A stretch of 64,000 nt of DNA from a virus, in the IMG/VR virus record IMGVR_UViG_3300049489_000400, positions 1-64,000 of that record, one strand, 5' to 3'. Both the position numbers and the translations under genes were made by a program. Shown piece by piece: positions 20,617-47,251 of the stretch. Below the pieces are notes generated by a model. The model was given only the letters and a program-made list of their open reading frames with translations. It was not told the DNA's origin and did not search any database. Position 1 is the first letter of the stretch; each line of letters opens with the position of its first letter.

Positions 20617-20627
20617 ATTATTTGATT

Positions 20628-31226: not shown

Positions 31227-31553
31227 TTAATTAGTATAGAATCTCCACTGATGATTTTCGCTTAATTTGAACTTCAATTTGCTTTTAATTGCATATTTTT
31301 GATCAAATACAGAATTAAATCCAGCTACATCCCCCTGATTGAATATCGAATTACAAAGAAATTCGTTTATCAGTACACCTTCAAACTGAAGATATGGAGC
31401 TGTATGAACAGTTCCTCCTACTGGAGGCTCAAAAGAACTTACAAGAAAGAAATTTATATTTCCGTCCATATTAACTTCTAGGATATCATGTCCATTTTCC
31501 GTCAACGCATTAACCTCGTTAAACAACTCTGAGTATGATTTACTGTTCTTCAT
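31227..31553 (-). CDS. Hypothetical protein, 108 residues
   Basis: No recognised motif; moderately hydrophobic with beta-type segments (GNINFFLVSSFEPPVGGTVH). It lies between the sigma-like gene (14-base overlap) and the helicase gene (1-base gap). Confidence 0.65.
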   Translation of the reverse strand: MKNSKSYSELFNEVNALTENGHDILEVNMDGNINFFLVSSFEPPVGGTVHTAPYLQFEGVLINEFLCNSIFNQGDVAGFNSVFDQKYAIKSKLKFKLSENHQWRFYTN

Positions 31554-32163
31554 CTTCGTTAAAAATTACAATTTGCTTTTTGATTTTCTTGATAGAATTT
31601 TGGTATTGAGATGATGTTATTCTCTTTTTTCTATCAAGGAACTCATCTTTCTTTTCGTTTAATAACTTTGACCGTAGAACCATCTTATCTACTTTATCCA
31701 AATCTAGGAATGATATTAAAAAGTCAATATCATATTGAGAAGAGTTTTGTATAACAGGTCTGAATATCTCATGCTTCTGAAAATCTTGAAACTTTTCGCT
31801 GTTTCTAACTTCTTTCTGAAACATTCTGAATAGACTCCTGGTTAACGACTTATTGTAGTAAAAATAGAAACAGCTTTTAGAATGCACCTTGTAGTTACTC
31901 ACACACTTATCCAGCACTATGTAACATTCTGTTTCTATTTCATCTTTCTCAAGGCACTCGTGAGTAACACTTGAATTTCTAAACAACATCTGATAGTTTG
32001 TAACGTTCTTAATGACTATTTTCTTCATCATCTTAAACAGTTCAAACTTTAATTCAGACACTAATCTTTCATTAGTGCTTTTTTGTATCTTTAGAATATA
32101 GCCATTAACTTTCTTTCTGTTGAACTCTGGCTCTGCTATTTTGAATAAAGTAAAATGCATCAT
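31540..32163 (-). CDS. Sigma-factor-like protein (probable gp55-type)
   Basis: A 207-residue protein. Residues about 40-122 fit sigma-70 region 2: ETECYIVLDKCVSNYK, CFYFYYNKSLTRSLFRMFQK. Residues about 150-198 could hold a region 4-like HTH (DLDKVDKMVLRSKLLNEKKD onward). In T4-like phages the late sigma gp55 gene lies next to the 46/47 genes, and here the gene lies close to SbcC/SbcD. It probably directs host RNA polymerase to one of the phage promoter classes. Confidence 0.65.
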   Translation of the reverse strand: MMHFTLFKIAEPEFNRKKVNGYILKIQKSTNERLVSELKFELFKMMKKIVIKNVTNYQMLFRNSSVTHECLEKDEIETECYIVLDKCVSNYKVHSKSCFYFYYNKSLTRSLFRMFQKEVRNSEKFQDFQKHEIFRPVIQNSSQYDIDFLISFLDLDKVDKMVLRSKLLNEKKDEFLDRKKRITSSQYQNSIKKIKKQIVIFNEDEEQ

Positions 32164-32468
32164 CCTTTAAATTTTTCGATTAACTCTTTGTTTTTAACGT
32201 ATTTTTGCTCCTTGATATCTTTCTTATAATGCTCTCTGGAACGCTTCGTTAAAACGGCTTGTTTTTGGTCAGGGGTCATGGAATTAAATTTGTTGACCCC
32301 CCAAGAAGGAATATAACCTAAACATTTAAGAACCTTAGATTCATCATTAGGACATTTTACATCATTTTCTTCTTTTTCCTGTTCCGTCATTTCTATGACG
32401 AAATTATTTCTATTGTTACCGCATGAGCAATCTAAACAACAGAAATTGAATTTCTTAGTACTATCCAT
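32160..32468 (-). CDS. Zinc-ribbon-like protein
   Basis: A 102-residue protein. N-terminal C-C-x-x-C-x-C (FNFCCLDCSCG) and C39/C49 (VKCPNDESKVLKCLG) would bind one or two Zn ions. The rest is basic and helical. It overlaps the sigma-like gene as ATGA. Perhaps a transcription co-factor. Confidence 0.65.
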   Translation of the reverse strand: MDSTKKFNFCCLDCSCGNNRNNFVIEMTEQEKEENDVKCPNDESKVLKCLGYIPSWGVNKFNSMTPDQKQAVLTKRSREHYKKDIKEQKYVKNKELIEKFKG

Positions 32469-33003
32469 TTATCTTAGATTTTAGTAAGTGTAAAATATGA
32501 ATAGCATCTGCTTCATTATCATCAGAACCTTTATAGCCCCATAATTTATCAGCAAATTCAATCATTAAAGGTTTACCAGCATTTCCATTAGAAGTTGCGA
32601 ATTTCTTTATCTCTGAAGCAGAAAATTCAATGTACTCAATTTCTAATTCCGTACTCAATTTTTCAATTATACAAATTAACTTACTAGAATGTATGATTGG
32701 ATTGATGTTACGTCCTGATGGTAATTCATAAGCAATGACGTTAATCTTATTCTTAACAAGAAAATCTCTTAATCTTGATTCGAATCTAATCCACTTCATA
32801 CCTTGACTTTCTTTACTCTTTATGGATAAGTCCCATAATTCGTAATTATAATCAGAACCTACTAATTGCCAAGCAATTCCACATTTAGTAGCCTGGTCGA
32901 TAGCCATAAGATTCATAGAAACAGGCTTGAGAGCAGTTTTTATTTTCCTTGCTCTTCCTACTTTGTCATCTATCGCTTTTTGTTTCGATTTCGTTTTAGC
33001 CAT
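32461..33003 (-). CDS. RuvC-like Holliday junction resolvase
   Basis: A 180-residue RNase H-fold nuclease. D36 in LMAIDQATKCGIA, E93 in IAYELPSG, and D161-D162/D166 in GSDDNEADAIHI make up the RuvC acidic set; NAGKPLMIEFA is the usual helix before the last motif. It would cut branched DNA during recombination and before packaging, like T4 gp49 in role but RuvC-like in fold. It lies next to the SbcC gene. Confidence 0.85.
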   Translation of the reverse strand: MAKTKSKQKAIDDKVGRARKIKTALKPVSMNLMAIDQATKCGIAWQLVGSDYNYELWDLSIKSKESQGMKWIRFESRLRDFLVKNKINVIAYELPSGRNINPIIHSSKLICIIEKLSTELEIEYIEFSASEIKKFATSNGNAGKPLMIEFADKLWGYKGSDDNEADAIHILHLLKSKING

Positions 33004-33004
33004 C

Positions 33005-34870
33005 TTAGTTTAATATTCGACTGACACCGTCAATCTTTTTAATGTATAATTCGTTTTCTGCTCCTATTGGATCATTTCTATGAGATACGACCATAGTAGT
33101 AACACCTATGTGTTCTAATATGTTTACAACATCTCTTTGTCCAGTCGCATCAAGACCATCGAAAACTTCATCTAGTATCAACAAATTAAGTCCACCTGTT
33201 GGAGCAGACATATTCATCAATTTCTGAAGACCCACGATATTAGCAAGATTTATACGACCTTTCTCACCTCCAGAATATCTCTTAAAACTACCTAAATTAT
33301 TACCATTTCTCAAAATTGAAACGCTAATTTTCTCAGATAGTTCACCGTTTTTTAACTCTGTAAATCCATCAATCTGAACTTGCAAATCTGAGTTGAATTT
33401 CTTCAGATAACTATTTGTCATTCCTTCGATAATCTTCACACTCTTATTACTTAAATAGGTGCTAAAGCCTTTTTTACCAAAATGGTAAATCCAGAAGTCT
33501 ATATCGGAAATTTCTTTTGAAATTGAATCTAATTCTTCTGTTTTAGCATGCTTATGCTTTTCTGTTTCAGCAAGCTTCAATCTGACTTCTTTTATTTTTT
33601 CTTTGTTGTCAGAGACCTTAGAAAGTTTTTCGATAGAATCTTTTAATTTTGAAATACTTCTATCATTGACAGATATTTCGTCATTTGTTCCTCTTATCTT
33701 ATTTTCAAGTCGATTTATTTTCTGTTCTATTTCTTGCTTTTTGTCGGTCTGCTGCTTGATAGTCTTAATGTCTGATTCCTTTACTTCTATTTTCTTTTGT
33801 ATTCTTTTAACATTAGATTTAGCAATTGTTAACTCTTCTGTAGAATACTCAATCAGTTCATCAACCTCAGAAACATCTATATCAGATGAAGGATTGAATT
33901 CATGATTACATTCTGGACAAGTTATCGCTCCATCTTTTATAGTGCTAAGGTGGTCGATAGTAGATTCAATATTTCTTACTTTAGTTTTTGTTTTCTTTAA
34001 TTTTTCCTCCAGTAACTCAATTGATTTCTTAACCTCTTTTATATGGTTAGAATCTACCTTTATTAGGTCATTTTCAGCCTTTAACTGCTCTATTTTTTCC
34101 TTGCATTCTAATTTGTAAATCTCTAGTCCTTTTGACTCTGATTCTAATTCTTTTATATCAGATTCGATTTCTTTTATCTTGTCATCATTTGAATTAGTTT
34201 TAGATTTTTTCAAATCTTCAATTTCTTGTTCATAAACTTCTATTTTAGACTCAAGTGAATTTATTGAATCCTCTACTTTTCTTAGTTTAGTAGATTCAAG
34301 TTCCTTTTTTTCAGCTTTCAAATTTTCTATTATCTTGCTGATTTTATCGGTATTAGAAAGTCTTGATATGATGTTTTTCTTTTCTGTATCATTTACAGTC
34401 AAGAATGAGAAATTGGTATCTTGTCCAATTATGAAAAAATGTAGTAAATCCTCTCTGGATAAGCCTATTAATTCATATACTCTCTGGTTAGCTTCATTAA
34501 CAGATGTTATTTCTTTATTCAGCTCATTATTTTCCCATATTTCAACCTTTGCTGATTTCTTTCTATGGAACCATCTTTTTATTGTGAGATCATTTACATC
34601 TCCTAACTTGTTCTCAAGAGTAAATTCTACATAAGCAGAATTTTCACCATCCTGAATGAAGTCTTCTTTATTTACATCTCTACAAGTCAATCCAGTAGTA
34701 GCTAGTGATATGGCTTCTATCAGAGTAGATTTTCCAGAACCGTTACTATCTGCACCAGGGTCTGATTCATTAACCCCGAATATCATAGTACAACTATTTC
34801 TTGAGAACTCGTACTCTGTTTCTGAGTGCGTCATCAAGGCTGTCATCTTTATTGACTTTGCTTGCCACAT
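33005..34870 (-). CDS. SbcC/gp46-like recombination ATPase
   Basis: A 621-residue SMC-type ATPase. Walker A lies at 40-49 (ADSNGSGKST), a long coiled coil at about 180-460 with a zinc hook C318-P-E-C321, the ABC signature SGGEKGR at 533-539, Walker B LNLLILDEVFD at 561-571 and the H-loop His597. With the SbcD-like nuclease it forms the Rad50/Mre11-type complex that resects DNA ends for recombination-dependent replication. It is shorter than bacterial SbcC and similar to T4 gp46. Confidence 0.93.
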   Translation of the reverse strand: MWQAKSIKMTALMTHSETEYEFSRNSCTMIFGVNESDPGADSNGSGKSTLIEAISLATTGLTCRDVNKEDFIQDGENSAYVEFTLENKLGDVNDLTIKRWFHRKKSAKVEIWENNELNKEITSVNEANQRVYELIGLSREDLLHFFIIGQDTNFSFLTVNDTEKKNIISRLSNTDKISKIIENLKAEKKELESTKLRKVEDSINSLESKIEVYEQEIEDLKKSKTNSNDDKIKEIESDIKELESESKGLEIYKLECKEKIEQLKAENDLIKVDSNHIKEVKKSIELLEEKLKKTKTKVRNIESTIDHLSTIKDGAITCPECNHEFNPSSDIDVSEVDELIEYSTEELTIAKSNVKRIQKKIEVKESDIKTIKQQTDKKQEIEQKINRLENKIRGTNDEISVNDRSISKLKDSIEKLSKVSDNKEKIKEVRLKLAETEKHKHAKTEELDSISKEISDIDFWIYHFGKKGFSTYLSNKSVKIIEGMTNSYLKKFNSDLQVQIDGFTELKNGELSEKISVSILRNGNNLGSFKRYSGGEKGRINLANIVGLQKLMNMSAPTGGLNLLILDEVFDGLDATGQRDVVNILEHIGVTTMVVSHRNDPIGAENELYIKKIDGVSRILN

Positions 34871-35228
34871 ACTTTACTTTATTTGGATTTTGTACAAATT
34901 TAAAATTAGGTGGTAAATAAATATCACCTACCTTTTTATGAATCGCTTTCACTAAATCTAACTTTGATTTAGAAGACATTACGTCATTTGCTGATTTAAT
35001 CGCTTTTGATAATTTGGTAAAGTAAGGTGTCAATCTTGCTCCAGTAACCGCTTCTGTTACACACCAAACAATTAATTTACCCTTTAATTTCTTATAAAGG
35101 AAAAAATCAAAATTTTCAAACTCTTTGATTTTCAAAGGTTTTCCGTCAACCTTCTTGAAATAATTGCCACATCTTATATAGCAATCTTCAGAATGTCTCT
35201 TATACTTTCTTGCTATGACTTTATTCAT
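34794..35228 (-). CDS. Hypothetical protein between SbcC and SbcD
   Basis: A 144-residue basic protein with no recognised family. It overlaps SbcC by 77 bases and the SbcD-like gene by four, so it is part of the same translational unit. Residues about 36-70 (EFENFDFFLYKKLKGKLIVW) look beta-rich. A DNA-binding accessory to the complex is possible. Confidence 0.65.
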   Translation of the reverse strand: MNKVIARKYKRHSEDCYIRCGNYFKKVDGKPLKIKEFENFDFFLYKKLKGKLIVWCVTEAVTGARLTPYFTKLSKAIKSANDVMSSKSKLDLVKAIHKKVGDIYLPPNFKFVQNPNKVKYVASKVNKDDSLDDALRNRVRVLKK

Positions 35229-36256
35229 AACTTCAGATATTTCAGACCTTGTTTTCTATTATCTGAGCTGATTCCTTGAATCTTGCAATATTCTAAGAAA
35301 TGTTTTGTTATTTTCTTAGAATCCATCTGCTCAAAATCCCCCTCCTCAACCTTCAATATTTCACCGTTGATTTCTTCAGACTCAAATTTACAATCAATAC
35401 CCTCATCGGTAAATTTTGACAAATTTATCTTTTCGATATCAGTTTTAGTTCCTTGGAAAATGAATCTGACATTATCATCAGTTCCTTTATGAAATTCTAA
35501 TTCATTTTCTATTGAAGAAATATCAGATGCATCAAGTTTTACCTTTATGTATTTTTTGAACTTACTAGGAACAAATTCCAAACTACCATCCGATTTTATA
35601 AGGGTGAATCCCTTATCAGAAATATCCTCTCCATAGTTTGCTTGATAAGCAGAACCTACATAGTGTATGTTTTTACCTATTATAGAAGAGTCGTGATAAT
35701 GTCCTACAAGTACTTTATCCCAATATTTCATTCTTTTAGTAGGAATACCATCTTCAACGATGCTACCGTCATTATTCCTAACTCCATTAAATGATTTATG
35801 AGTTATTAGTATATTTACAGCTTTGTCCTTGCTCCTAGATATTTTTTCTAATTCATCTAGTCTTTTTGAGTAAGAACTGGTAAAATACGGTAGAAAACCG
35901 ATAAATACATCTCCCTTGATTACAAATCCCTTATCTCTTATTAGATTAAAGGATTTGTAATCAGAGAAAACATCTAAATAACTAGATTCGCTGTCTTGGT
36001 CTGTCTTATCGTGATTGCCAGGAATCCCTACAATTTCTAAACCATACGAATCAACAATATTGAAAATTTTCTTCATTCTTAATAAAGTCTGAAGATTCTG
36101 ACCTATCCTGTTTGTAAACCAATCACCAGCGTGAGTAATAGTTTTACAATTTTCTTCTACACACAGCTCACAAGCCTGAACAAAAATATCCTCAACTAAA
36201 TCAAGATTATCCTTTTTCAAATGTGTGTCAGTAAGTAGAACGGAAACTGTTTTCAT
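35225..36256 (-). CDS. SbcD/gp47-like nuclease
   Basis: A 343-residue metallophosphoesterase with all five metal motifs: D10-x-H12 in LTDTHLK, D45 in HAGDWF, N81-H82-D in GNHDK, H153 in ITHKS and H186/H188 in GHYHD. It is the nuclease partner of the SbcC-like ATPase. The class B box at 36274-36284 lies 19 bases before the ATG and may start the recombination operon that runs down to RNase H. Confidence 0.93.
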   Translation of the reverse strand: MKTVSVLLTDTHLKKDNLDLVEDIFVQACELCVEENCKTITHAGDWFTNRIGQNLQTLLRMKKIFNIVDSYGLEIVGIPGNHDKTDQDSESSYLDVFSDYKSFNLIRDKGFVIKGDVFIGFLPYFTSSYSKRLDELEKISRSKDKAVNILITHKSFNGVRNNDGSIVEDGIPTKRMKYWDKVLVGHYHDSSIIGKNIHYVGSAYQANYGEDISDKGFTLIKSDGSLEFVPSKFKKYIKVKLDASDISSIENELEFHKGTDDNVRFIFQGTKTDIEKINLSKFTDEGIDCKFESEEINGEILKVEEGDFEQMDSKKITKHFLEYCKIQGISSDNRKQGLKYLKL

Positions 36257-36272
36257 ATAACGACTTTTATTT

Positions 36273-37361
36273 CTATAACTTTGGATATCTCTCCTCCATT
36301 ACATCGTCATGTCTAGCTTCTGTTATTTTTTTAGTTAAAACGTCTAACAACTTGTTTCTTTCATAATACAAATCAAAGAATGTTCTTTTGCTCTTCCATT
36401 GCATTTTACCCATGAAGTCAAAAACAGTTGCAGATTTCTTTTTCACTATACCTTTTTCTACAGCATACTGTATATCTTCATCAGATAAAATGATACCATA
36501 TCCTAACAATATAGTTATCTTAGTTTTTCTGCGGCTTCCAAAGTCATTTTTCACTGTCTTAATTTCAGTATATTGAGCAACCTCAACATCATCTATTTTC
36601 TCATGACCTATCAAAGTTGTTCTCAATCTAATTGTAGGAAAAAACTGTATCCATTCTCCACCTCCAGATTTTTTCTCCTTAGACATACCTCCAATCTGAT
36701 CATGTACGTGATTCAATATTACAAAATGAACAATAGAATCGTACATCTCACCAGTTAGATATTTAGCGAACATCTTGGCAGATTTTGCAAATGAAGCCAT
36801 TTGAGCATGCTTCAGTTCAGACATATCCTTACCTTTTTCCAATGCTTTCTCCATTGTTTTAGTATTATCGTCTAAAGTATCCAATTCTGCCTTAGATAGC
36901 GTAGCGCCAAGAGAATCCCACATGAAATAGAACTTAGGTGTCTCACCAATCTCTTCTTCAATGAATATTTTCTTTGAGTCTTCAATCAGTTTCTTAACTT
37001 TCATGAACATCTCTTCTACATATCTAATTTTAATGATAAGCACTTTGTCTGGATCAATACCTATCTTTATGGCGTAATCTTTATTATCCCTGTTCTCTGA
37101 GGATAGGATGACAGCAATTCCATTCTTTTGTTTCTTCAAGAAATGTTTCATTCCTTGTAAAGCAAGAGTTGTCTTACCTGACCTGGATAGACCAGCTATT
37201 TCTATCATACCAGTAGGGAAACCTAATATTCCAAGGTTATAATCTAGTTCAGGACTTCCTGTTGGAACCCAGCTTTTATTATCCTTGAAATTATCTTTGT
37301 CGGTAAATTTCACAACATCTTCACTGTTAAATCTCTTAACAAGTTTATCTACTATGCTCAT
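36273..37361 (-). CDS. RecA/UvsX-like recombinase
   Basis: A 362-residue RecA-fold ATPase: Walker A GLSRSGKTT at 57-65, Walker B FYFMWDSLGA at about 145-154, and an L2-region SGGGEW. It would form filaments on ssDNA and catalyse strand exchange. It is surrounded by its functional partners: the ssDNA-binding protein and UvsY-like gene upstream, SbcD and SbcC downstream. It ends in TAG, and a class B box begins within two bases of that codon. Confidence 0.9.
   Translation of the reverse strand: MSIVDKLVKRFNSEDVVKFTDKDNFKDNKSWVPTGSPELDYNLGILGFPTGMIEIAGLSRSGKTTLALQGMKHFLKKQKNGIAVILSSENRDNKDYAIKIGIDPDKVLIIKIRYVEEMFMKVKKLIEDSKKIFIEEEIGETPKFYFMWDSLGATLSKAELDTLDDNTKTMEKALEKGKDMSELKHAQMASFAKSAKMFAKYLTGEMYDSIVHFVILNHVHDQIGGMSKEKKSGGGEWIQFFPTIRLRTTLIGHEKIDDVEVAQYTEIKTVKNDFGSRRKTKITILLGYGIILSDEDIQYAVEKGIVKKKSATVFDFMGKMQWKSKRTFFDLYYERNKLLDVLTKKITEARHDDVMEERYPKL
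36274..36284 (-). promoter_or_regulatory. Class B box (CCAAAGTTATA)
   Basis: Overlaps the last codons and TAG of the RecA-like gene, 19 bases before the SbcD-like ATG. Confidence 0.55.
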
Positions 37362-37373
37362 AATTTATTGTAT

Positions 37374-37399
37374 TAAAAAAGGGGCACTATGACCCCTTT
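37374..37399 (-). terminator. Intrinsic terminator
   Basis: The stem AAAGGGG/CCCCTTT (37378-37384 with 37393-37399), loop of 8, followed by TTTTTTAA on the minus strand, 20 bases after the stop of the ssDNA-binding protein gene. It separates that highly expressed gene from the RecA-like gene. Confidence 0.88.
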
Positions 37400-37418
37400 C
37401 TATGTTAAATGAAAATTA

Positions 37419-38585
37419 TTATTTCTTTCCTTTTTTGAGTCTAGCACGAATATCATCCATACTCATTTTACCTTTCTTCTTGGCAGGCTTTTCTTCCTCC
37501 TCATCGTCGTCATCGGAATCATCTTCATCGTCGTCTGAGTCTTCGTCCTCATCTTCCTCATCTTCCTCAACTACTTTTTTCTTAGAAGATGATTTTTTCT
37601 TTGGAGTTTCTTCCTCTTCTTCATCGTCATCGTCTGAATCGTCTTCATCCTCGTCCTCATCTTCCTCTTCAACTACTTTTTTAGCAGCTTTCTTTTTAGG
37701 TTCAGGTTTTTTAGATGATTTCTTTTTAGGTTTTTCATCCTCTTCTTCATCGTCATCATCGTCAGAATCCTCATATTGAGATTTAACTTTTTCTACGATT
37801 TCCAACCAATCTTCATCTTCAAAGAAGTCGATTTCATTTTCAGTATCAAAAAATCTCAAACCTTCTAATGCTAGTTCAAAATCCTTCAATCCGTAAACAT
37901 TCAAATAAAGTTCTTGTAAAGATTTAGCCTTGTCGAATTTCTCAAGATTTTCATCTGAGATTGGAGTAGCTTTCTTACCAACAGACACTTCGTAATAATC
38001 TTCACCTTTCTTCTTGTTAGGCTTTGAATTATACTTGATCAATAATGGTAAACCGTCATCTGGGTCAGTGAATGGGTCAACTTCGATAGGCTCATCATCA
38101 TCCTCTACAAAAGTAGCTTTGTTGATAGCATCACGAACAGTCTTTTTGAATGAGATCAATCCAAATTCTCTTTCTTCTTTTGAAATCTTCTCAGCGTAAG
38201 CAATCCAAGAATGTTCAGCACCTAAACCGCCTTTCCAATCAGTAACTTTAGAAAGTTTTTCCTTATCAGACAGATTCTTTTGACAAAAAGAAACATATTC
38301 TTCAATAATATCCTTTTTAGTTCCTCCGTGCTGTCTTGAATTCAAAACTGTTCTTTTTACAGGGTCTCCATTTTCACCCTCAATTGTAAGCCAGTGTCTT
38401 TTTCTTAATACGAAAAAATCTACTCCTTCATGAGCAGGGAAAAGTCTAAATTTGTTAGTTTTTCCTTCCTCAATTTCAAGAAATTCGCTTCTGGAGTGAG
38501 CTCCAATAAGTTCATTCTCTTTGTCTACTTTTTGTTTAAGTAAATCGACCTTGGCTGGCTTATACTTACTTCTTAAATTTGCCAT
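37419..38585 (-). CDS. gp32-like single-stranded DNA-binding protein with long acidic tail
   Basis: A 388-residue protein. The N-terminal 270 residues fit the T4 gp32 layout: a basic N-terminus, an OB-like core with NKFRLFPAHEGVDFFVLRKR and a Cys/His region around VSFCQKN. Residues about 275-370 are repeated blocks of Asp/Glu runs separated by Lys-rich PKKKSS segments, and the end is KGKMSMDDIRARLKKGKK. Acidic tails of SSBs recruit replication proteins; this one is far longer than usual. A class B box lies upstream, a terminator downstream. Confidence 0.78.
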   Translation of the reverse strand: MANLRSKYKPAKVDLLKQKVDKENELIGAHSRSEFLEIEEGKTNKFRLFPAHEGVDFFVLRKRHWLTIEGENGDPVKRTVLNSRQHGGTKKDIIEEYVSFCQKNLSDKEKLSKVTDWKGGLGAEHSWIAYAEKISKEEREFGLISFKKTVRDAINKATFVEDDDEPIEVDPFTDPDDGLPLLIKYNSKPNKKKGEDYYEVSVGKKATPISDENLEKFDKAKSLQELYLNVYGLKDFELALEGLRFFDTENEIDFFEDEDWLEIVEKVKSQYEDSDDDDDEEEDEKPKKKSSKKPEPKKKAAKKVVEEEDEDEDEDDSDDDDEEEEETPKKKSSSKKKVVEEDEEDEDEDSDDDEDDSDDDDEEEEKPAKKKGKMSMDDIRARLKKGKK

Positions 38586-38608
38586 TAGATTTCTTTTTTA
38601 TTTTTAAT

Positions 38609-38619
38609 TAACGTTGTTA
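38609..38619 (-). promoter_or_regulatory. Class B box (TAACAACGTTA)
   Basis: A palindromic variant 23 bases before the ATG of the ssDNA-binding protein and touching the stop of the upstream gene. Confidence 0.55.
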
Positions 38620-39150
38620 CTTAATCCTACCTTCTTTTATCTTAAAATAGATATTGTTCATTTGTTTTTGAATTATATCTAAATCAACATCTCCAGGTCT
38701 AAGCGTCATGCTCAATTTATCTAGCTTAGTTGACTTGTCTCTAGCAGCCTGATAAATAGAATACATATATTCTTTTTCTTTTTGTATTCTATGCATTTTA
38801 GTCCTTTTGACCTTCCAAATCTTGTCGCACAAAAGTGCACTTTCTACTTCATCGACAGTGGCTCTTTTAACTTTACCCTTCTCATCTGAAGTTTCTAATT
38901 CCTCTCTTAACTGATTTTTTCGTTTTGCCTCATAAATAGACAAATCTAATTTTGCCTGCTGAAACTCATTATCCATATCAGCTGCTAACAAACCTAGTTT
39001 ATTTACAACTACTGGGAAGGTTATCAATTCAGCCATAAGATTAGAATAATCAATCTTCAAGATTTTGTCGATGTCTATGTCATTAAAGTCACCAACTTCA
39101 AATTTGACTACCTTTTCGCCAATATTGAATATTAATTCTCTTTGTTTCAT
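38617..39150 (-). CDS. Helical protein, possible UvsY-like recombination mediator
   Basis: A 177-residue all-helical protein. Its pattern (AELITFPVVVNKLGLLAADM, a Tyr/Lys/Arg-rich helix, then KVKRATVDEVESALL and a final KLDKLSMTLRP) resembles phage UvsY-like mediators, which load UvsX on gp32-coated DNA. Position beside both partners supports this; sequence evidence alone is weak. Confidence 0.5.
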   Translation of the reverse strand: MKQRELIFNIGEKVVKFEVGDFNDIDIDKILKIDYSNLMAELITFPVVVNKLGLLAADMDNEFQQAKLDLSIYEAKRKNQLREELETSDEKGKVKRATVDEVESALLCDKIWKVKRTKMHRIQKEKEYMYSIYQAARDKSTKLDKLSMTLRPGDVDLDIIQKQMNNIYFKIKEGRIK

Positions 39151-39413
39151 TCTATGACTTCTTTCTTGTTAGTATTAAGATTTTCATGAACTTCAATCAT
39201 TCTATTCAAATAATCTCTAGCTTTCAATAAATCTGTTAAATTCTTAGCTTTTGTAGAACCAGGTCTTGTAAACCTGTCTAAATATCGCTTTACATTTTCT
39301 GAAGCCCAGATGTCTCCATAATCAGTACCTTTTCTGTAGTTCAGGGAAATTTGATCAAATTCCTTATCTCCATACTTGGCTCTGTTAGATTTCTCTAATT
39401 CATTTACGTCCAT
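39147..39413 (-). CDS. Small DUF3310-like protein
   Basis: An 88-residue protein. NVKRYLDRFTRPGSTKAKNL followed by TDLLKARDYLNRMI fits the small phage family in which a 'I-x-Y-x-x-R...K...DL-x-KA-x-x-YL-x-R' motif recurs (T7 gp1.7-related, nucleotide metabolism). It overlaps both neighbours by 4-10 bases. Confidence 0.55.
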   Translation of the reverse strand: MDVNELEKSNRAKYGDKEFDQISLNYRKGTDYGDIWASENVKRYLDRFTRPGSTKAKNLTDLLKARDYLNRMIEVHENLNTNKKEVIE

Positions 39414-40000
39414 AACTCTTTATCTATTATTTCTTGTAAAATCGAAGTGTCCTTACCTTCTAAATAAGGAATCAATTCTTTACAAGAAAGTTTAACTTTC
39501 TCTACACAATAAAATTGTTGATTCAATAATGATGTATTGCCAAGATTTAATTCCTTCTTTAGGTAAAATAACATAGACAACCAGTCAGCCACCTTAACTA
39601 TTTTCTTAACTAGGAATGGGACTGAAGTCATTATGTCAGATAACAATTTTTCAGATTCTCTGTCCTTATTGAATTTAGCATTAACCTTATCTTTTATAAT
39701 TAAGTCAAGCAAATTTCTCATTTCTTCACCGTAAGCATTTCCGTATTTCACTCCATGAACTATGTCTCCTGTGAACATCTCATCAAAATCGTGAAATATA
39801 GCATAAGTTGTTATTTGAAGCTTCAAATTTATGTCATCTTCATTCAGGATTTCCTCAGCAAGTAATCTGCTTACCATAGCCACAAAGAATGAATGATGAG
39901 CAACAGTTTCGTCTTTGATTCTATTCAAACCATTCCATCTGACCATATTGTTAAGTTGGTCAAAATCTGGATCATGAAAAATCTTATCAATTATATTCAT
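39404..40000 (-). CDS. HD-domain 5'-deoxynucleotidase (YfbR-like)
   Basis: A 198-residue HD hydrolase: VRWNGLNRIKDETVAHHSFF at 20-39 gives the R-x-x-R and His residues, H70-D71 the HD pair, E74 and D79 in DEMFTGDIV, and VADWLSM the last metal Asp. YfbR-type enzymes dephosphorylate deoxynucleoside monophosphates, shaping the nucleotide pool for synthesis. It lies between the polymerase and recombination genes. Confidence 0.85.
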   Translation of the reverse strand: MNIIDKIFHDPDFDQLNNMVRWNGLNRIKDETVAHHSFFVAMVSRLLAEEILNEDDINLKLQITTYAIFHDFDEMFTGDIVHGVKYGNAYGEEMRNLLDLIIKDKVNAKFNKDRESEKLLSDIMTSVPFLVKKIVKVADWLSMLFYLKKELNLGNTSLLNQQFYCVEKVKLSCKELIPYLEGKDTSILQEIIDKELWT

Positions 40001-40316
40001 TTGCTAAAATTTCTTGTTCAATTATACTTAACTCTGCTTCATTAAATTCCTCTAATTCAGCTTCTTGTCTTTTTTCAAATCTCCAAGTAGCAAAAGCTGG
40101 TTCTTGCTTTCTGCCTATCAATTTTATGAATACAATTGGATTTGAAATTTCTTCCAACAATATACCGACTACAATATCATCGTTATGTAATATTTCTCTG
40201 ATTGTGTAAATTCTGCCCTTCTTAACCCAATTTACATACATATTGATAACTGGGAATAGCATCTCCACCTTTATAGAATCATCTACACATAAAACCTTAT
40301 CACCTACTTCTAACAT
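39987..40316 (-). CDS. Hypothetical protein, 109 residues
   Basis: A beta-rich N-terminal part (VGDKVLCVDDS, GRIYTIREILHNDDIVVGIL) resembles SH3-like small phage proteins; the C-terminus is acidic. It follows the polymerase gene by four bases. Confidence 0.65.
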   Translation of the reverse strand: MLEVGDKVLCVDDSIKVEMLFPVINMYVNWVKKGRIYTIREILHNDDIVVGILLEEISNPIVFIKLIGRKQEPAFATWRFEKRQEAELEEFNEAELSIIEQEILANEYN

Positions 40317-40320
40317 AGAA

Positions 40321-43300
40321 TCAATTTATAACTAAGAACTCTGTCCTATTCCTAGTAGAACCTCTTCTTTCACTAATGCTATTCAAAGATTTTCCATATT
40401 CCTTTTGATAATTTATCTCACAATTAACTGCTATCAAAGATTTTTTAGCTTCAAGTTTTTCCATCTTTTCTAAAACACGCTCGTAGCAATCATTCCAAAC
40501 AGTCAAAATCATAACTACATTGTTAGATTCTATAGAAACTCTAGCATAGGGTAATTTGGATTGTTTGTACTTCAAGTGTTTGATATACATTATTCTCCCC
40601 ACTATTGTAGCTTCTTTAGGTGATTTTAATTCCTTATAAGATTTCTTATCATATTCCTCAGCAGAAACATAATTCTTGACAAGATTTTTAATCTTGCTTT
40701 TCTTTTCATATTTCTGTAAAAGTGACAGAAAGTTTATATCTCCAAATCCCGTCAATGCCTTTTGTTCTGTTACCCAATACCAGTTTGAATTACTATTCTC
40801 GTTTAAAACTTCTGGATATGGCTCCGATTTGGTTAAATTAGCATGAAATTCTAAAAGTGATTTTCTCACTTTCTCTTCATCGATTTTTAGACCATATTGT
40901 CCTCCTATATTATCAAAAGCACCAGCTATAATCAAAGCCTTTACAACTCTTTTGTTTACTTTGTTTTTAGGAACTCTATTTATAAAATCTTCCAAGTCAG
41001 AAAAGTCACCATTCTGATTTCTTTCGTTCAGTATCACTCTGGCTGCGACATCGCCTACATTTTTGATTTTAGTAAGAGACCAATAAATGCTATTGTCGTC
41101 AGGGAAACCAACGAAAAATAGGTCAGATTTATTGACACAAGGTGGCTTAATCTGAATATCCGAACCAATCTTTCTTATCTCAGAAATTCTGTTAGGTACT
41201 TCCTCTTCATAGTTTGCAAAATTCAAACTTGCTGTCCAGAACTCTAAAGGATATTTCACCTTCAAATATTGACACCAATATCCCATTAGAGCATAAGCGG
41301 CAGCATGAGACCTGTTGAACCCGTAGCTAGAAAACGCATTCATCTTATCCCATATTTTTACAGCATCTTCCTCTTTATCCCCACCTAGTAAATTATTGTA
41401 ATATTCAACAAATCTGCTCTTAAATAAATTAAGATTTTCCTTGTCGAATTTTTTCATATAAGTCCTTACTTGATCAGATTCTGCAAGTGACAAACCTCCA
41501 GCGACCACCATCGCCTGCATAATCTGTTCTTGATAAACATAAAGACCAAATGTATTCTTAGTAACTTCTTTTAAGAATGGATCATAAACAGGCTTTTTCT
41601 TTCCATGTTTAATTTCAGCAAAATCCTTATGTGCATTGGAATCCATTGGGCCAGGTCTAAATAAGGCATTCATTGAAATTAAATCTTCAACACCATCAGG
41701 TTTCACTTGTTTAGAATACGTTTTCAATCCTGACGTTCCGAACTGAAAAACATCTTCATTCCATCCGTTTTTGAAAAATTCCATCACGCTTGGAATATCA
41801 ATTTTTATCTTGTTTAGATTTACCTTTTTGCCTCTATTTTTCTTTATCAAATCTAATGTGTTCCTGAACTTATCCAGCTGAGCAATTCCTAATATATCAG
41901 CCTTCAAAAATCCAGCAGCATCGATGAACTTACCTTCCCATTCAGAAACTAATTGGTCATCTATCTTTTTAACAGGCATCCAATCATATATAGTCATAGG
42001 ATTCCCTGATTTATCCTGCTTAGGAACAATCAGTACCGCAGACGCATGTATGGAAGATGTTTTAGGTTGATTGATAGAAATTCTAACTAAATCACAAACT
42101 TCAGCATTATTCTGAACGAACTTTTTCAGCACAGGTTTTTCAACTGCATTTTCAAATATATCACCCCAAGAACTTTTACCGATAACATCAGGTATTTCCT
42201 TAGTGGCAAAATTTGCATCTTGAAAAGAAACTCCAGAAACCCTAGAAAAATCTTTCAAAGCTGACTTGACTTTCATTCTAGCATAAGTACCAATAGAACA
42301 AACATTGTTATAAGTATATTTTTCTTCAATATATCTTTTAACATCACCTCTTCTCAACCCTTCAAAATCTATATCAATATCAGGCAATGCATCCGCTGAC
42401 TTAGCACGCTCTCCTGAAACCCTCGTCTTGTTCAAAAAACGCTCAAATAGTAGATTGTATTGAATAGGGTCTATTTCTATAATCCCCAGAAGATAGGCTA
42501 CCAAAGAACCTCCTGCCGAACCCCTACCAGGACCAACTAGAATATCTTTTGTTTTGCACCATTCAACAATATCCCATAATATCAAGAAATAATCAACGAA
42601 TCCCGCACCTACAATTACACTATTTTCTTCTTCAAGTCTTTCGTAATATTGTATTATTTTATCCTCATCATCTGGGAACTTGTCAATGACCTTTCTTTGA
42701 AAACCTTTTTCTAATAATTCATGATATAAAGACTCTGAATCTGGATGTTCAAACTTAGGCAATTTATGATTACCAGTATCTATCATATAGTCGCACTTTT
42801 CGGCAATTTCTACAGTATTTGAAACAGATTCTAGTATTAAATCAAACTTATCAGGATTCTTTGAAAAATGAGGCATTAATTTATCTAAAGTCTCATCTAT
42901 TGTTTTGTAATATTGATCACTAGATGACAATTGAGTTTTCTTATCTACCTTATTAAGAACAGATTTGATTTTGTAATCAGATTTTTCGATGTAATAAGAA
43001 TCGTTAATCAAAACAGGCTTCAATACATCACTATAATTATCCATATAGTATCTGATATTTCTAAGATTTTGTATATCAACAGAATCGTCATCGAACTCAA
43101 CAGAATCTATCTGATAATACAAATCTCCTTTAAAAATCTTTTTGTATTTTTTAATCATTTTTCTACCAATGTCATTTTTGATATTGGAATTAAAATAACT
43201 ATCTGTAGGTATGACACATATCAATCCTTCAGAATGATTCAAGAAGTCCTCTTCAGAAACAAATTTGTCATTGTCTACATTTATGAATTTACCAATTCTT

Positions 43301-43920
43301 AATAGGTTTTTCCAACCTATTTCATTTTTTACAAATAGCTTTATATCGAATAAAGAATGGTGTTCATCATCCTGATTATATTCGTAAGCTACTGATATTG
43401 TTTCTCCAAGGATAGATTTTACACCCTTCTTTTTACAAGCTAATTGAAAAGGTAAAGTTGCAGCTAATGTATTTTTATCAGACAGACCTAAAATCTTCTG
43501 ACCTAAGAAAACTGTTTTAGCTACCCACTGTTCTGGTTCTGCTGAGCCGTTTAATAACTCGTATCCAGTATGGACTCCTAAGTGGATAAAATCTATTTCC
43601 AAATCTGAATCGTACGAACCAACATTTATGAATTCTTTGAACTCTGGGATAAAAATATCTTCATTGTATTCATCCTTCTTTGTCTTTTTAGAAGAATAAT
43701 AGAACTTGTCTCCCCACTTAAATAATATGTGAGTAATATCTTCCTCATAGATTCTGTAGAACTCTTCTTCAGTAAGAATGAAGGAAAAATCATTCGATAT
43801 GACCTTTCCTTCTTTCTCTTCTACAAAAACTAATTTCCCAAGTCCTTCTATTTCTACAATATTCCCTTCAATATTGCATTTTATAGATTTTTGTTCAATC
43901 CAGTTTTTTAATTCTTTCAT
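40321..43920 (-). CDS. dnaE: DNA polymerase III alpha-type (DnaE-like) replicative polymerase
   Basis: A 1199-residue C-family polymerase. The first 105 residues are an unrecognised extension. The PHP domain starts with FIHLGVHTGYELLNG (H113, H117), but the usual TDH motif is LSDKN, so PHP activity may be lost. GPGRGSAGGSLVAYLLG lies near 465, the catalytic PDIDIDFE near 512, and FLKADILGI near 672 carries the third Asp. ISRSHAA-like FNRSHAAAYALM follows, and a C-terminal OB-type segment (IVGRIMYIKHLKY) ends the protein. Phages of this size often use a family A or B enzyme instead. Confidence 0.93.
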   Translation of the reverse strand: MKELKNWIEQKSIKCNIEGNIVEIEGLGKLVFVEEKEGKVISNDFSFILTEEEFYRIYEEDITHILFKWGDKFYYSSKKTKKDEYNEDIFIPEFKEFINVGSYDSDLEIDFIHLGVHTGYELLNGSAEPEQWVAKTVFLGQKILGLSDKNTLAATLPFQLACKKKGVKSILGETISVAYEYNQDDEHHSLFDIKLFVKNEIGWKNLLRIGKFINVDNDKFVSEEDFLNHSEGLICVIPTDSYFNSNIKNDIGRKMIKKYKKIFKGDLYYQIDSVEFDDDSVDIQNLRNIRYYMDNYSDVLKPVLINDSYYIEKSDYKIKSVLNKVDKKTQLSSSDQYYKTIDETLDKLMPHFSKNPDKFDLILESVSNTVEIAEKCDYMIDTGNHKLPKFEHPDSESLYHELLEKGFQRKVIDKFPDDEDKIIQYYERLEEENSVIVGAGFVDYFLILWDIVEWCKTKDILVGPGRGSAGGSLVAYLLGIIEIDPIQYNLLFERFLNKTRVSGERAKSADALPDIDIDFEGLRRGDVKRYIEEKYTYNNVCSIGTYARMKVKSALKDFSRVSGVSFQDANFATKEIPDVIGKSSWGDIFENAVEKPVLKKFVQNNAEVCDLVRISINQPKTSSIHASAVLIVPKQDKSGNPMTIYDWMPVKKIDDQLVSEWEGKFIDAAGFLKADILGIAQLDKFRNTLDLIKKNRGKKVNLNKIKIDIPSVMEFFKNGWNEDVFQFGTSGLKTYSKQVKPDGVEDLISMNALFRPGPMDSNAHKDFAEIKHGKKKPVYDPFLKEVTKNTFGLYVYQEQIMQAMVVAGGLSLAESDQVRTYMKKFDKENLNLFKSRFVEYYNNLLGGDKEEDAVKIWDKMNAFSSYGFNRSHAAAYALMGYWCQYLKVKYPLEFWTASLNFANYEEEVPNRISEIRKIGSDIQIKPPCVNKSDLFFVGFPDDNSIYWSLTKIKNVGDVAARVILNERNQNGDFSDLEDFINRVPKNKVNKRVVKALIIAGAFDNIGGQYGLKIDEEKVRKSLLEFHANLTKSEPYPEVLNENSNSNWYWVTEQKALTGFGDINFLSLLQKYEKKSKIKNLVKNYVSAEEYDKKSYKELKSPKEATIVGRIMYIKHLKYKQSKLPYARVSIESNNVVMILTVWNDCYERVLEKMEKLEAKKSLIAVNCEINYQKEYGKSLNSISERRGSTRNRTEFLVIN

Positions 43921-45110
43921 TACATTTTTCCAATTGGAGAAGTCAAATTAACAGAAACTATCTCTTTGTCTTTAACCTTAGAAGCAAAGAAATTAACAGC
44001 TAATGCTATTATATCTAACGATGGGTAAAAGTTAGAAAGATTAGATATTTTGTCAATCGTTTTCCACTTGTCTGAGTCAGTTCTCGAAGTCGATTTGTAT
44101 TCTACATACATCATCAAAAGATCATAAACCAAATGAAGATATTTTGAGAAATGCATCAATGTTTGCTCTTCTGTTTCTGTTATTCTTTTTCCAGACTTTA
44201 TTGAGTCTATGATCATGCTAAGGAAATAATCTACCTCTGCTAATCTAGGTTCAATTGATTCTGAATCGAAATTCATATCCATTCTTGCTGGAACAAATAC
44301 ATCGTACAAATCTTCAAACTGACCATTACTCAACTGAACCTCATCATACATTTTCCAAGCAATAGGATTATCATTATATATATGAAGACTTTGAGAATTG
44401 TGAGTTTGAGTGCCTAACTCAATACCTAAAATGTTAGCCATAATTTCAGTCAAGAAACTGAATTGGAAAACATTAGTGGGTAAACCCCAATGTAAATCAT
44501 TACTTCTGTTAGAAATAGTCGTTCTCAATTTTCCATTTCTGATTTTCAAGAATACCATATCGTTACAAGGCAAATCCTTAGATTTAGTTCCTAAGTCCAA
44601 ATCTGCATTCCAAATCTGCATAACTGCTCTTCTGGTTTCAGAATCTTTATGAAGGTCTTTTAGGGTCTGAAGAATCTGATCAACACCTTTATTCATTTGC
44701 TCTACTGCGTGACCATTATTCTCTGGTGAGGTAGGTAAAGTCCTATCGAAAGAGGAAACACCATGTTTTCTCAGTCTAAACCCATATGGAGCATGGAAAT
44801 TAACCCCATCGTCAGAATAATTCTTCATATTAGAATTGAAGATATCAAGAAATGCTACATCTTTCTCTCCTTTGAAAATCCAAATAGCTTCAGCAAGAAG
44901 GAAAAATATGTTTATATCTCTACCATTGTTTCCTACACAACGTCTGTACGGATTAGTGATTGTTGTCTTGAAGTCTATAATTTCTTTAGTATCCCCATTT
45001 CTGCTCTCTACAGAATCTCCATTCTCAATAACGTACTTGTTTATGAAAGGATAAGTTGAAGAGAAATTACTTGTCACAACAGAATCATTAATAATATTTT
45101 TCAAAGTCAT
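43920..45110 (-). CDS. thyA: Thymidylate synthase (ThyA-type)
   Basis: A 396-residue protein. The catalytic Cys182 is in DLPCNDMVFLKI, the phosphate-binding pair in SETRRAVMQIWN (158-169), and RSNDLHWGLPTNVFQFSF (202-219) carries the base-reading Asn213, which favours dUMP over dCMP (hydroxymethylases have Asp). It is about 100 residues longer than bacterial ThyA, mainly at the C-terminus. The usual LPCH is LPCN. It methylates dUMP made by the phage dUTPase. Confidence 0.88.
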   Translation of the reverse strand: MTLKNIINDSVVTSNFSSTYPFINKYVIENGDSVESRNGDTKEIIDFKTTITNPYRRCVGNNGRDINIFFLLAEAIWIFKGEKDVAFLDIFNSNMKNYSDDGVNFHAPYGFRLRKHGVSSFDRTLPTSPENNGHAVEQMNKGVDQILQTLKDLHKDSETRRAVMQIWNADLDLGTKSKDLPCNDMVFLKIRNGKLRTTISNRSNDLHWGLPTNVFQFSFLTEIMANILGIELGTQTHNSQSLHIYNDNPIAWKMYDEVQLSNGQFEDLYDVFVPARMDMNFDSESIEPRLAEVDYFLSMIIDSIKSGKRITETEEQTLMHFSKYLHLVYDLLMMYVEYKSTSRTDSDKWKTIDKISNLSNFYPSLDIIALAVNFFASKVKDKEIVSVNLTSPIGKM

Positions 45111-45131
45111 AATAAAGATTTTTATTTTTAG

Positions 45132-45140
45132 TAACTATGC
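45132..45140 (-). promoter_or_regulatory. Class B box (GCATAGTTA)
   Basis: Directly follows the T-run of the terminator at 45141-45168 and lies 21 bases before the thymidylate synthase ATG. Confidence 0.5.
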
Positions 45141-45168
45141 GAAAAAGGCACCCAATCGAGTGCCTTTT
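45141..45168 (-). terminator. Intrinsic terminator
   Basis: A 9-bp stem (AAAAGGCAC/GTGCCTTTT, 45143-45151 with 45160-45168), loop of 8, T-run on the minus strand. It ends the acidic-repeat gene at 45188. Confidence 0.9.
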
Positions 45169-45187
45169 ACAAATCTTAAAAGTATTA

Positions 45188-46201
45188 TTACTTCTTAGCT
45201 TTCTTTTTCGCAGGAGCAGCTGGCGCTTCTTCTTTCTTTGAAGATTTAACTTTCTCAGCTTTTTTCGCATTTGAAGATTTCAAATCTTTCTCCATCTTCT
45301 CACGATTTTTCCCAAGCTTGTCATCTTTCTTAGAAAGGTTAGCTACAACTTCATCGAAACCATCTTTGTTTTCTTTGATACATTCTACCAACTCATCTAA
45401 TGAGATTCCCATCACAAGCATGTTACCAGACCATGATTTTTTGATTTCAAAATCTTCTCCGAACAAATCACGTAAAACATTCTCGTCACGTACTGAAGAC
45501 ATGTAAACACGTCCGATGATTTCTCCATCTTTCGTAACTTTAGGTGAATCGAAAGACATGAATACTTTCTTGTTATTCTTACCTAAGAATTTAACAGAAA
45601 CACCTCCGTTAGCAATAAAGTTGTATTCAAAATCTTTTCCTAATGCTTTCTTCAACGCATCGAATTTTTTCGCATCCTCTTCTGACTGTAAAGGATTCAA
45701 ACGCTTAGAAACTTTCGGCTCAGCTTTTGCTTTCTCCTTTTTTGTAGTTTCTTTTTTAGCTTTCTTATCAGCTGATTTTTGAACTTTGTCGTTCTTTTTC
45801 TCAACTTCTACACTTTTCTTAGAAGATGATTTTTTCTTTGGAGCAGGCTCTTCATCTTCCTCTTCTTCATCCTCGTCCTCATCTTCCTCTTCTTCATCCT
45901 CGTCGTCTGAATCATCCTCATCCTCATCCTCGTCATCAGAATCTTCGTCTTCATCTTCTGAATCCTCGTCCTCAACTTCGTCAGCTAAATCGTCATTAGC
46001 TTGTTCGCTATCTTCATACATAGCATCTACCATTTCGAACAAATCTTCATACGAATCATCGTCCACGTCTTCGATATCATTCTCATTCAAGAATTCAATC
46101 ATTTGCTTTCTCGCTTCTTCAACGGTACTAACACCTTTGATTCCTACGCCAGCAAGTTCCTTAACTTGTTCCTTGCTCAACTTTACTTCTTTCTTTGCCA
46201 T
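45188..46201 (-). CDS. Acidic/basic low-complexity protein
   Basis: A 337-residue protein. Residues about 40-120 are almost all Asp, Glu and Ser; 120-170 are Lys-rich (APKKKSSSKKSVEVEKK); 175-275 form a folded-looking alpha/beta domain (YNFIANGGVSVKFLG, VYMSSVRDENVLRDLFG); the end is KKEEAPAAPAKKKAKK. A 30-base DNA segment is shared exactly with the tail of the ssDNA-binding protein gene. A replication-associated or DNA-mimic role is possible. Both a class A and a class B site precede it. Confidence 0.7.
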   Translation of the reverse strand: MAKKEVKLSKEQVKELAGVGIKGVSTVEEARKQMIEFLNENDIEDVDDDSYEDLFEMVDAMYEDSEQANDDLADEVEDEDSEDEDEDSDDEDEDEDDSDDEDEEEEDEDEDEEEEDEEPAPKKKSSSKKSVEVEKKNDKVQKSADKKAKKETTKKEKAKAEPKVSKRLNPLQSEEDAKKFDALKKALGKDFEYNFIANGGVSVKFLGKNNKKVFMSFDSPKVTKDGEIIGRVYMSSVRDENVLRDLFGEDFEIKKSWSGNMLVMGISLDELVECIKENKDGFDEVVANLSKKDDKLGKNREKMEKDLKSSNAKKAEKVKSSKKEEAPAAPAKKKAKK

Positions 46202-46252
46202 AGCACTTTACAATTTAAAAATTAAAAATTATTCCTTGTTATTTGTTCTATT

Positions 46253-46263
46253 TAACTTTGTTA
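46253..46263 (-). promoter_or_regulatory. Class B box (TAACAAAGTTA)
   Basis: The palindromic form 51 bases before the ATG at 46201 and 16 bases downstream of the class A -7 box, so the two systems overlap at this gene. Confidence 0.55.
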
Positions 46264-46278
46264 GAAACAATTATACAG

Positions 46279-46310
46279 CTAAATTAGAAACTATTTTTTA
46301 CTCTACAAAA
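46279..46310 (-). promoter_or_regulatory. Class A promoter (TTG-N17-TCTAATTTAG)
   Basis: The minus strand reads TTTTG, 17 bases, TCTAATTTAG (46279-46288), the weakest -7 match. The block from the upstream AAATAATTTGGAAAAAA through the spacer (AAAAAATAGTT) is nearly identical to that at 47220-47251. Confidence 0.65.
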
Positions 46311-46337
46311 TTTTTTCCAAATTATTTTTGAAAAATT

Positions 46338-46922
46338 TTAATCTTCTTGATAACTTACTGAAAACTCTCTAACTTCTGTATTGTTATTCAGTAAATAATC
46401 TTTAAGTATTTTCAAATTTATTTTATTCGTTTCAGTTGGGTCTAATTTACTATTTTTGAAAATCTTCTCAATCTTAGTTTTATCAGCACCCTTTAGATGG
46501 AATTTTATCATCTTTCTTTCTTGACCTTTAAATAGGCTCAATACATCGAAACCGTCAATTACAAATTCCATATTTTCCGCATCAAGAATTTCTTTATGCT
46601 CTCTTCCATAATCAAAGTTAATTTGAGACATAGGAATCATTTTAACTTTATTTATGTCTTTGATGAAGTCTCTTGATTTATTCAATAATGCGCTTCTAAG
46701 ATAGGCTTCCATCGGAACTGGCTTACAACGTCCTGTTTTCTTGTACTCTGCCCATTTCTTAGCGTACATCTTAATAGAAGTGAACAATTTCTCCTTTAAT
46801 TCTTGAACAATATCTTGTTTCTCCATTCCGATATTGTTTTCAGACCAAATCTTGTCTGCATAATACTTCGCTAAATGCTCGAACTTGAAGTAGTATCTTT
46901 CTGTTAAAGTCATCTTATTCAT
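46338..46922 (-). CDS. Sigma-factor-like protein
   Basis: A 194-residue protein. Residues about 15-92 fit sigma region 2: FEHLAKYYADKIW, a MEKQDIVQELKEKLF helix, and MEAYLRSALLNKSRDFIKDI, the core-binding and -10-reading helices. Residues about 130-170 (KGQERKMIKFHLKGADKTKI) may be region 4. Together with the gene at 31540-32163 it gives the phage two candidate sigma factors. It lies between two class A promoters and overlaps the upstream gene by four bases. Confidence 0.65.
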   Translation of the reverse strand: MNKMTLTERYYFKFEHLAKYYADKIWSENNIGMEKQDIVQELKEKLFTSIKMYAKKWAEYKKTGRCKPVPMEAYLRSALLNKSRDFIKDINKVKMIPMSQINFDYGREHKEILDAENMEFVIDGFDVLSLFKGQERKMIKFHLKGADKTKIEKIFKNSKLDPTETNKINLKILKDYLLNNNTEVREFSVSYQED

Positions 46923-47179
46923 GCTTCGAATGTTTCAGCGTTATCAAATAATTCCATTAACAATTCTCTCAAATCATCAATCTTCATCCAACCCACTAAA
47001 TCATCGTTAACATAAATATCCCCTGATACAGGATTAGCATCGTCTTCATTCCATTTATAGAAATTGACTTTAATTTCATCACCCTCTTTTATTTGAATAG
47101 CGTTACCATCGATAATGGTTTGGGTGTTTCTTTCTGACTTTCTCGTTCTGATGAACTCAGTCGTACCAACTTTTGACAT
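46919..47179 (-). CDS. Hypothetical small protein under class A promoter
   Basis: An 86-residue protein with a beta-rich centre (IQIKEGDEIKVNFYKW, GDIYVNDDLVGWMKID) and acidic C-terminus. No family is recognised. It is the first gene after the class A promoter at 47220-47251 and is coupled to the sigma-like gene. Confidence 0.65.
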   Translation of the reverse strand: MSKVGTTEFIRTRKSERNTQTIIDGNAIQIKEGDEIKVNFYKWNEDDANPVSGDIYVNDDLVGWMKIDDLRELLMELFDNAETFEA

Positions 47180-47219: not shown

Positions 47220-47251
47220 CGAATTTCTAAACTATTTTTTAATAGGCAAAA
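47220..47251 (-). promoter_or_regulatory. Class A promoter (TTG-N17-TAGAAATTCG)
   Basis: The minus strand reads TTTTG, 17 bases, TAGAAATTCG (47220-47229), preceded by AAATAATTTGGAAAAAA. It would transcribe the small protein and the sigma-like gene. Confidence 0.72.

Follow-up and report, generated by a model that had tools for sequence, protein, structure and literature searches.

Two sigma-like proteins and three classes of promoter-like motif in a phage that probably infects Bacteroidota

Introduction

Among described phages, the strategy closest to the one considered here is that of the Bacillus phage SPO1, in which host sigma serves the early genes and phage sigmas then serve the middle (gp28) and late (gp33/gp34) genes. 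The gp28 gene has an SbcC-type gene and a resolvase gene nearby, and gp33/gp34 lie downstream of polymerase and SSB genes, an arrangement that the locus described here resembles. In T4, the gp55 gene is about 3 kb from gene 47, and in several other T4-like phages it adjoins gene 47 or is one small ORF away from it. The gp55 protein consists only of a counterpart of sigma region 2 and a clamp-binding end, gp33 being a mimic of region 4, and T4 late transcription needs gp55, gp33, and the clamp at promoters that have a -10 element only (PMC2988020). Kayvirus late promoters also keep only a -10 motif, and a sigma like gp34 of phage SPO1 has been proposed for the late genes (PMC9241854). On the host side, Bacteroidota sigma-A promoters carry TTTG at -33 and TAnnTTTG at -7 (PMC7366714, PMC9723704). 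Our search of the literature, incomplete in its coverage, found no two-sigma programme described for Bacteroidota phages.

Here, we compare with these systems a locus that encodes two sigma-like proteins, A and B. An earlier note on this DNA had proposed a cascade from host sigma to a first and then a second phage sigma. Since two sigma-like proteins occur together with three promoter-like sets that precede different gene groups, a stepwise switching order can indeed be proposed. In the scheme that we infer, the motifs would be promoters, A and B would bind polymerase, each would read a particular motif, and B would act before A.

Results

The window and its relatives

The stretch of DNA analysed (the window) is the initial 64 kb of an IMG/VR virus record that is 98,717 bp long, and 128 of the window's 137 ORFs are encoded on the minus strand. 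Among cultured phages, the nearest relative found was Chryseobacterium phage MA9V-3, with 34% over an 831-aa tail protein and 37% over DnaE, which makes a host in the Bacteroidota probable. The two genes of interest were confirmed as minus-strand ORFs with ATG starts:

31540..32163, minus strand: protein A, 207 aa, sigma-like, with region 2 and, towards the C-terminus, a part resembling region 4; proposed virion-class sigma (fold, weak phrog_234 and phrog_1025 matches, hhalign to gp55, synteny)
46338..46922, minus strand: protein B, 194 aa, sigma-like, with region 2 and, towards the C-terminus, a part resembling region 4; proposed as the sigma made early (family PHROG and Pfam matches, fold, synteny)

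Relatives were collected via neighbouring genes and then by profile; they are only partly independent of one another, which limits the cross-genome motif statistics given below. Both A and B were present in 13 records, this phage being one and 12 related contigs the others; two of the 13 records are nearly identical, and identity goes down to about 30%. Contig G006 (38.5 kb) carries A with no match to B and may end before B, and shorter contigs each hold only one of the two genes. Neither A nor B was detectable in the distant relatives MA9V-3 and G007, and a scan of the MA9V-3 genes for another sigma returned ten candidates, none of them a sigma. We also observed that an HNH endonuclease of MA9V-3 (L006:18165-19046) matches Srd anti-sigma (1.7e-10) and sigma-70 decoy families (4e-6).

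Protein B and the host-like promoter class

The earlier note had read a sigma region 2-like helix set into both genes; for B, it is sequence that bears this out. Searched as a single sequence, the B protein of the window gave no Pfam or PHROG match. Two PHROG families, both annotated 'RNA polymerase sigma factor', were matched by other members: phrog_351 by 10 of the 15 B-family proteins (best E 1.4e-6) and phrog_1740 by 9 of the 15 (best E 1.3e-7). Furthermore, with 34.3 bits (E 2.1e-8), a syntenic B orthologue (L028:373-957) exceeded the 24-bit Pfam threshold for Sigma70_r2. We therefore count B of the window in the sigma-70 superfamily by family membership, its own copy being below the Sigma70_r2 cut-off. 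The AlphaFold model of B (pLDDT 80, pTM 0.45) matched mostly sigma factors in the PDB, though with a best E of just 5.7e-3, and region 2 by itself gave a TM of 0.65 relative to a SigE domain. Overall, B is very likely sigma-like as judged from sequence, with support that we grade as strong to good.

The neighbourhood of B is conserved as DnaB-primase-(141 aa)-(86 aa)-B-SSB-like-ThyX-DnaE, not every relative having all of the small genes. The 86-aa ORF forms a leader, and host-like promoter sequences lie upstream of both the leader and the SSB-like gene:

46919..47179, minus strand: leader ORF, 86 aa, overlapping B by 4 nt (ORF call, synteny)
47220..47249, minus strand: host-like promoter of the early class, TTG-N17-TAGAAATTCG, ahead of the leader ORF and B (motif, cross-genome control)
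46279..46308, minus strand: host-like promoter of the early class, in the variant form TCTAATTTAG, before the SSB-like gene (45188-46201) (motif)

The early class follows the pattern TTG-N17-TAnnAnTTnG or close variants at 972, 6456, 15322, 19666, 46308, and 47249. The string TTTGnAAAAAATTTTG is present in three of these six sites, and four of them have counterparts at orthologous positions in G008, the closest relative. The class shares the TTG and TA parts and a matching spacing with Bacteroidota sigma-A promoters (PMC7366714, PMC9723704), but its TTnG part is shifted downstream by two bases (TA-N4-TTnG). With a loose pattern, which was formulated after viewing the B upstream regions, a host-type box was found upstream of B or its leader in 9/13 genomes, where other unit starts would predict 1.8 (p=6e-7); with a stricter, canonical host-type pattern it was found in 4/13 (p=0.002). 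B is thus placed under host-like promoters here and in most relatives, the boxes being predicted promoters, and the suggestion that B sits just after early-class promoters holds. A first phage sigma under host promoters is also a feature of an SPO1-type cascade. A scan for E. coli-type sigma-70 promoters showed no excess (80 found vs 78.9 expected), nor did the canonical pattern TTG-N16-21-TAnnTT[TC]G on the coding strand of whole genomes.

The 'SSB-like' label of 45188-46201 (minus strand) was given by eye, and the protein has long Asp/Glu/Lys-rich low-complexity stretches. Another Asp/Glu/Lys-rich low-complexity protein (37419-38585, minus strand) weakly matches the single-strand DNA binding family phrog_15004 (3.4e-4). 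Within the replication gene run, 50012-50356 (minus strand) encodes a KilAC/antirepressor-domain protein (Pfam ANT, 2.2e-7).

Two further motif classes precede different gene groups

Two further motifs, CAAAGTTA and CA[AG]nTATTA, were first spotted by eye in this genome and then tested there; an unbiased 8-mer ranking placed both at the top for their shapes. The former was over-represented in the window (19 copies vs 4.9 expected; none of 100 shuffles as high), and 12 of its 18 coding-strand copies fall in the 70 nt that precede a gene, a space that makes up 9% of the sequence (p=3e-9). It surpassed all other permutations of its own letters (840) in upstream placement. Some copies are just 2-8 nt from the annotated start. 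Two copies concern the genes discussed here:

46253..46260, minus strand: CAAAGTTA upstream of the SSB-like gene (motif, conserved before the orthologue)
36276..36283, minus strand: CAAAGTTA, 19 nt upstream of sbcD, with which the gene run containing A opens (motif; not above chance in relatives)

Upstream of the SSB-like gene, CAAAGTTA was found in 5/12 genomes vs 0.7 expected (p=2e-4).

The second motif was characterised as CAGnTATTA, with 10 of 13 copies in this phage located in the same 70-nt space before genes (p=8e-9) and no copy on the other strand; it likewise exceeded all other permutations of its own letters (1120). The pattern was widened to CA[AG]nTATTA because G003, as was seen afterwards, uses CAAnTATTA as well. 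As CAGNTATTA shows no excess in raw count (5 in the window vs 3.1 expected), the evidence for it is its location. Copies include the following:

56602..56610, minus strand: virion-class copy CAGGTATTA, 26 nt before the tail fibre gene (54080-56575) (motif)
61564..61572, minus strand: CAGCTATTA (virion class), 36 nt upstream of 60787-61527 (motif)
5105..5113, minus strand: CAGATATTA (virion class), 20 nt upstream of 4239-5084 (motif)
23952..23960, minus strand: CA[AG]nTATTA copy upstream of 22767-23912, also found before the orthologues in five relatives (motif)

The last of these target genes (22767-23912, minus strand) encodes a 381-aa protein of unassigned family, away from the virion block, which might be a small terminase.

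Counted by distinct orthologous gene, CA[AG]nTATTA precedes 14 genes of the virion block (those for tail fibre, head protease, and the major head protein among them) and 5 outside it; CAAAGTTA precedes 3 virion-block genes and 26 others (Fisher p=1e-5). Together with the host-like boxes, there are three promoter-like classes in front of different gene groups, all of them predicted promoters. The earlier note had described two classes; that the classes are distinct stands, and their number is three rather than two.

We did not observe a conserved -35 column at either CAAAGTTA or CA[AG]nTATTA, and in having a -10 element only the virion class is like the late promoters of T4 (PMC2988020) and of Kayvirus (PMC9241854). 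The base A was preferred nine positions past the motif at 43 of 56 intergenic CA[AG]nTATTA copies (p=6e-6) and, more modestly, at 21 of 30 intergenic CAAAGTTA copies (p=0.006), as expected if transcripts start at a fixed distance from a -10 box.

Both motifs were enriched, with varying strength, in G001, G002, G003, G005, G008, G009, G016, and G017, and neither was enriched in MA9V-3 or G007, the relatives in which A and B were undetectable. In G013, G014, G015, and G018, which carry A and B, the motifs were weak or unsupported; these are partial contigs, or their motifs have drifted. G003 (L050-L054) holds further enriched words, for example ATCGTAAA, with 9 of 11 copies upstream of genes. 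A reading of CAAAGTTA as a host promoter in antisense (complement TAACTTTG) was rejected, as no -33 partner stood at the proper distance (5/60 vs 9.8 at other offsets).

Order of switching and assignment of the motifs

We consider it close to an even proposition that two phage sigma-like proteins redirect the host core RNA polymerase in turn, B reading CAAAGTTA and A reading the virion class. Host sigma-A would transcribe the early genes, including B, from the host-like promoters. Early-made B would then most likely direct polymerase to the CAAAGTTA class, which lies mostly before non-virion genes such as the SSB-like gene. A, encoded in a run of recombination genes, would most likely direct polymerase to CA[AG]nTATTA before head and tail genes. 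The members of this run upstream of A include:

35225..36256, minus strand: SbcD-like gene (phrog_100, 3.7e-37)
33005..34870, minus strand: SbcC-like gene (phrog_77, 5.9e-72)
32461..33003, minus strand: RuvC-like resolvase gene (phrog_159, 3e-17)

The cascade of the earlier note fits this scheme insofar as B lies under host-like promoters; its B-to-A step did not hold up. The copy of CAAAGTTA before sbcD would put A in the CAAAGTTA class and so close the cascade, and a promoter there driving the operon of A was attractive in this genome. Across relatives, however, the control failed: CAAAGTTA was upstream of sbcD in 2/13 genomes vs 0.7 expected (p=0.15), and before any gene from UvsX to A in 3/13 vs 3.2 expected, that is, at chance. 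We therefore dropped this promoter, and nothing ties the expression of A to that of B. An SPO1-type cascade would have its second phage sigma under the promoters of the first, a feature that the sbcD result (2/13, p=0.15) does not show.

The same lack of a tie between the operon of A and CAAAGTTA lends weight to a different pairing, in which both proteins are sigma factors but the virion class is read by B, or a single protein recognises both motifs and the other has some other role. The two motifs are indeed similar: both begin with CA and end with TTA, and they share the spacing to the preferred downstream A. Moreover, because A and B nearly always co-occur, comparison between genomes cannot separate their roles or assign a motif to either. 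On the other hand, the targets of the two motifs are clearly different and the motifs differ in length by one base, which favours two specificities, and B sits under host-type promoters. We regard such a pairing as unlikely, though it is the strongest competitor to the assignment of CAAAGTTA to B and the virion class to A.

Protein A as a candidate sigma factor

We then asked how far A itself resembles a sigma factor. The alternative to be weighed is that B is the sole true sigma, A being a sigma-like, partly degenerate co-factor or a recombination protein, and CAAAGTTA being read by host polymerase with an activator or being no promoter. In keeping with it, A had no Pfam match, and no A member scanned reached the Sigma70_r2 cut-off; the window protein alone gave no usable family match in single-sequence PHROG and Pfam searches. 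Sigma matches of A members to PHROG families were all weak (E 0.01-0.9). Nevertheless, several members matched sigma families independently: 3 of 10 weakly matched phrog_234, 'late sigma transcription factor' (best E 0.061), and 3 further members matched phrog_1025, 'RNA polymerase sigma factor' (E 0.01-0.025), over a span from region 2 to region 4.

Structure prediction, which the earlier note had proposed as a check, came out on the side of sigma for A. For the AlphaFold model of A (pLDDT 81, pTM 0.54), all 50 PDB matches listed were sigma chains, a result that speaks against B as the only sigma, even though the scores were weak (best E 8.8e-4, the one below 0.001). Whole-chain TM-scores against PDB sigma chains were 0.3-0.4; low whole-chain values for the A and B models are explained by two domains that are freely placed. 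Of the structure matches of the two models, just a few were better than E 0.001. Against a library of viral structures, the best match of A was a phage sigma (E 1.4e-4), and most named viral matches were sigma. From the predicted fold and several individually weak profile matches, we hold with moderate confidence that A is sigma-like.

The gene neighbourhood of A is conserved as UvsX-SbcD-SbcC-RuvC-(102 aa)-A-(108 aa)-UvrD, with some small genes absent in some relatives. A location among recombination genes would suit a recombination protein; gp55, however, is likewise found beside the gp47/gp46 genes. The weaker downstream signal of CAAAGTTA and its copies that nearly touch the start codon would also suit B as the only sigma. 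Taking both sides together, we think this quite unlikely and keep A as the candidate virion-class sigma. In contig G014 (IMGVR_UViG_3300029990_000011, 20509-21129), the A homologue is broken by one in-frame stop; as the homologue is open in the nearly identical contig G013, the stop is a sequencing error or marks a pseudogene.

The location of A near the SbcCD-type pair had been likened to that of T4 gp55. The likeness is a loose one, since A is near the pair but downstream of sbcC, on its opposite side, and the gene order differs from that of T4. At the sequence level, hhalign against nine gp55 proteins aligned A 73-118 with gp55 68-113, the region 2 core in register (P 0.0056, at a probability of just 6.5%), which adds to the weak phrog_234 matches. 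A is nonetheless no plain gp55: helices 146-203 of the AlphaFold model are predicted to form a further, region-4-like C-terminal domain, which gp55 does not have, and the phrog_1025 matches reach region 4. A therefore fails membership of the gp55 family.

Searches for more remote kin of both proteins gave little. In hmmsearch runs among decoys, the A and B families showed no significant match to gp28, gp34, or gp55 (A vs gp34, E 0.14, at decoy level). Single-sequence tblastn with A and B gave nothing usable, two distant family members run by tblastn against cultured phages gave no match, and a PDB sequence search with seed profiles found nothing relevant. The idea that A and B are paralogues was set aside, as profile-profile comparison gave no sign of it.

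Discussion

A reading of the motifs as RNA signals for processing or translation upstream of genes is very improbable: the motifs do lie near start codons, in a phylum described as lacking Shine-Dalgarno sequences (PMC6847099), but promoters agree better with a downstream A at a fixed distance, with target genes that divide by class, and with copies at distances of 50 nt and beyond from the start.

With the motifs taken as candidate promoters, the wider proposal is that this phage belongs to an undescribed clade of Bacteroidota phages with an early, middle, and late programme. Two phage sigmas, with no detectable sequence kinship to gp28 or gp34, would each use a -10-only class of their own (CAAAGTTA and CA[AG]nTATTA) on a host polymerase that has atypical promoters of its own. 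We put this forward tentatively, at somewhat short of an even chance. Compared with SPO1, the host phylum and the motifs are other, and a shallow search identified no gp33-like partner here. Kayvirus differs in motif and host, and one phage sigma is discussed for it (PMC9241854).

If the proposal is true, it would supply an entire clade of uncultured phages with a candidate programme of expression and place an SPO1-like strategy outside Bacillota. The two promoter words could be used to predict the timing of expression in related metagenomic contigs, and the two sigma/promoter pairs might work independently of each other in Bacteroidota.

We also observed three minor features elsewhere in the window, all on the minus strand. 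A tRNA-Thr (ggt) gene lies at 14360-14437. By eye, an 84-aa ORF at 22252-22506 resembles acyl carrier protein, with a DSLDCVEV motif, and an ORF at 28276-28821 resembles an RmlC-type sugar-nucleotide epimerase.
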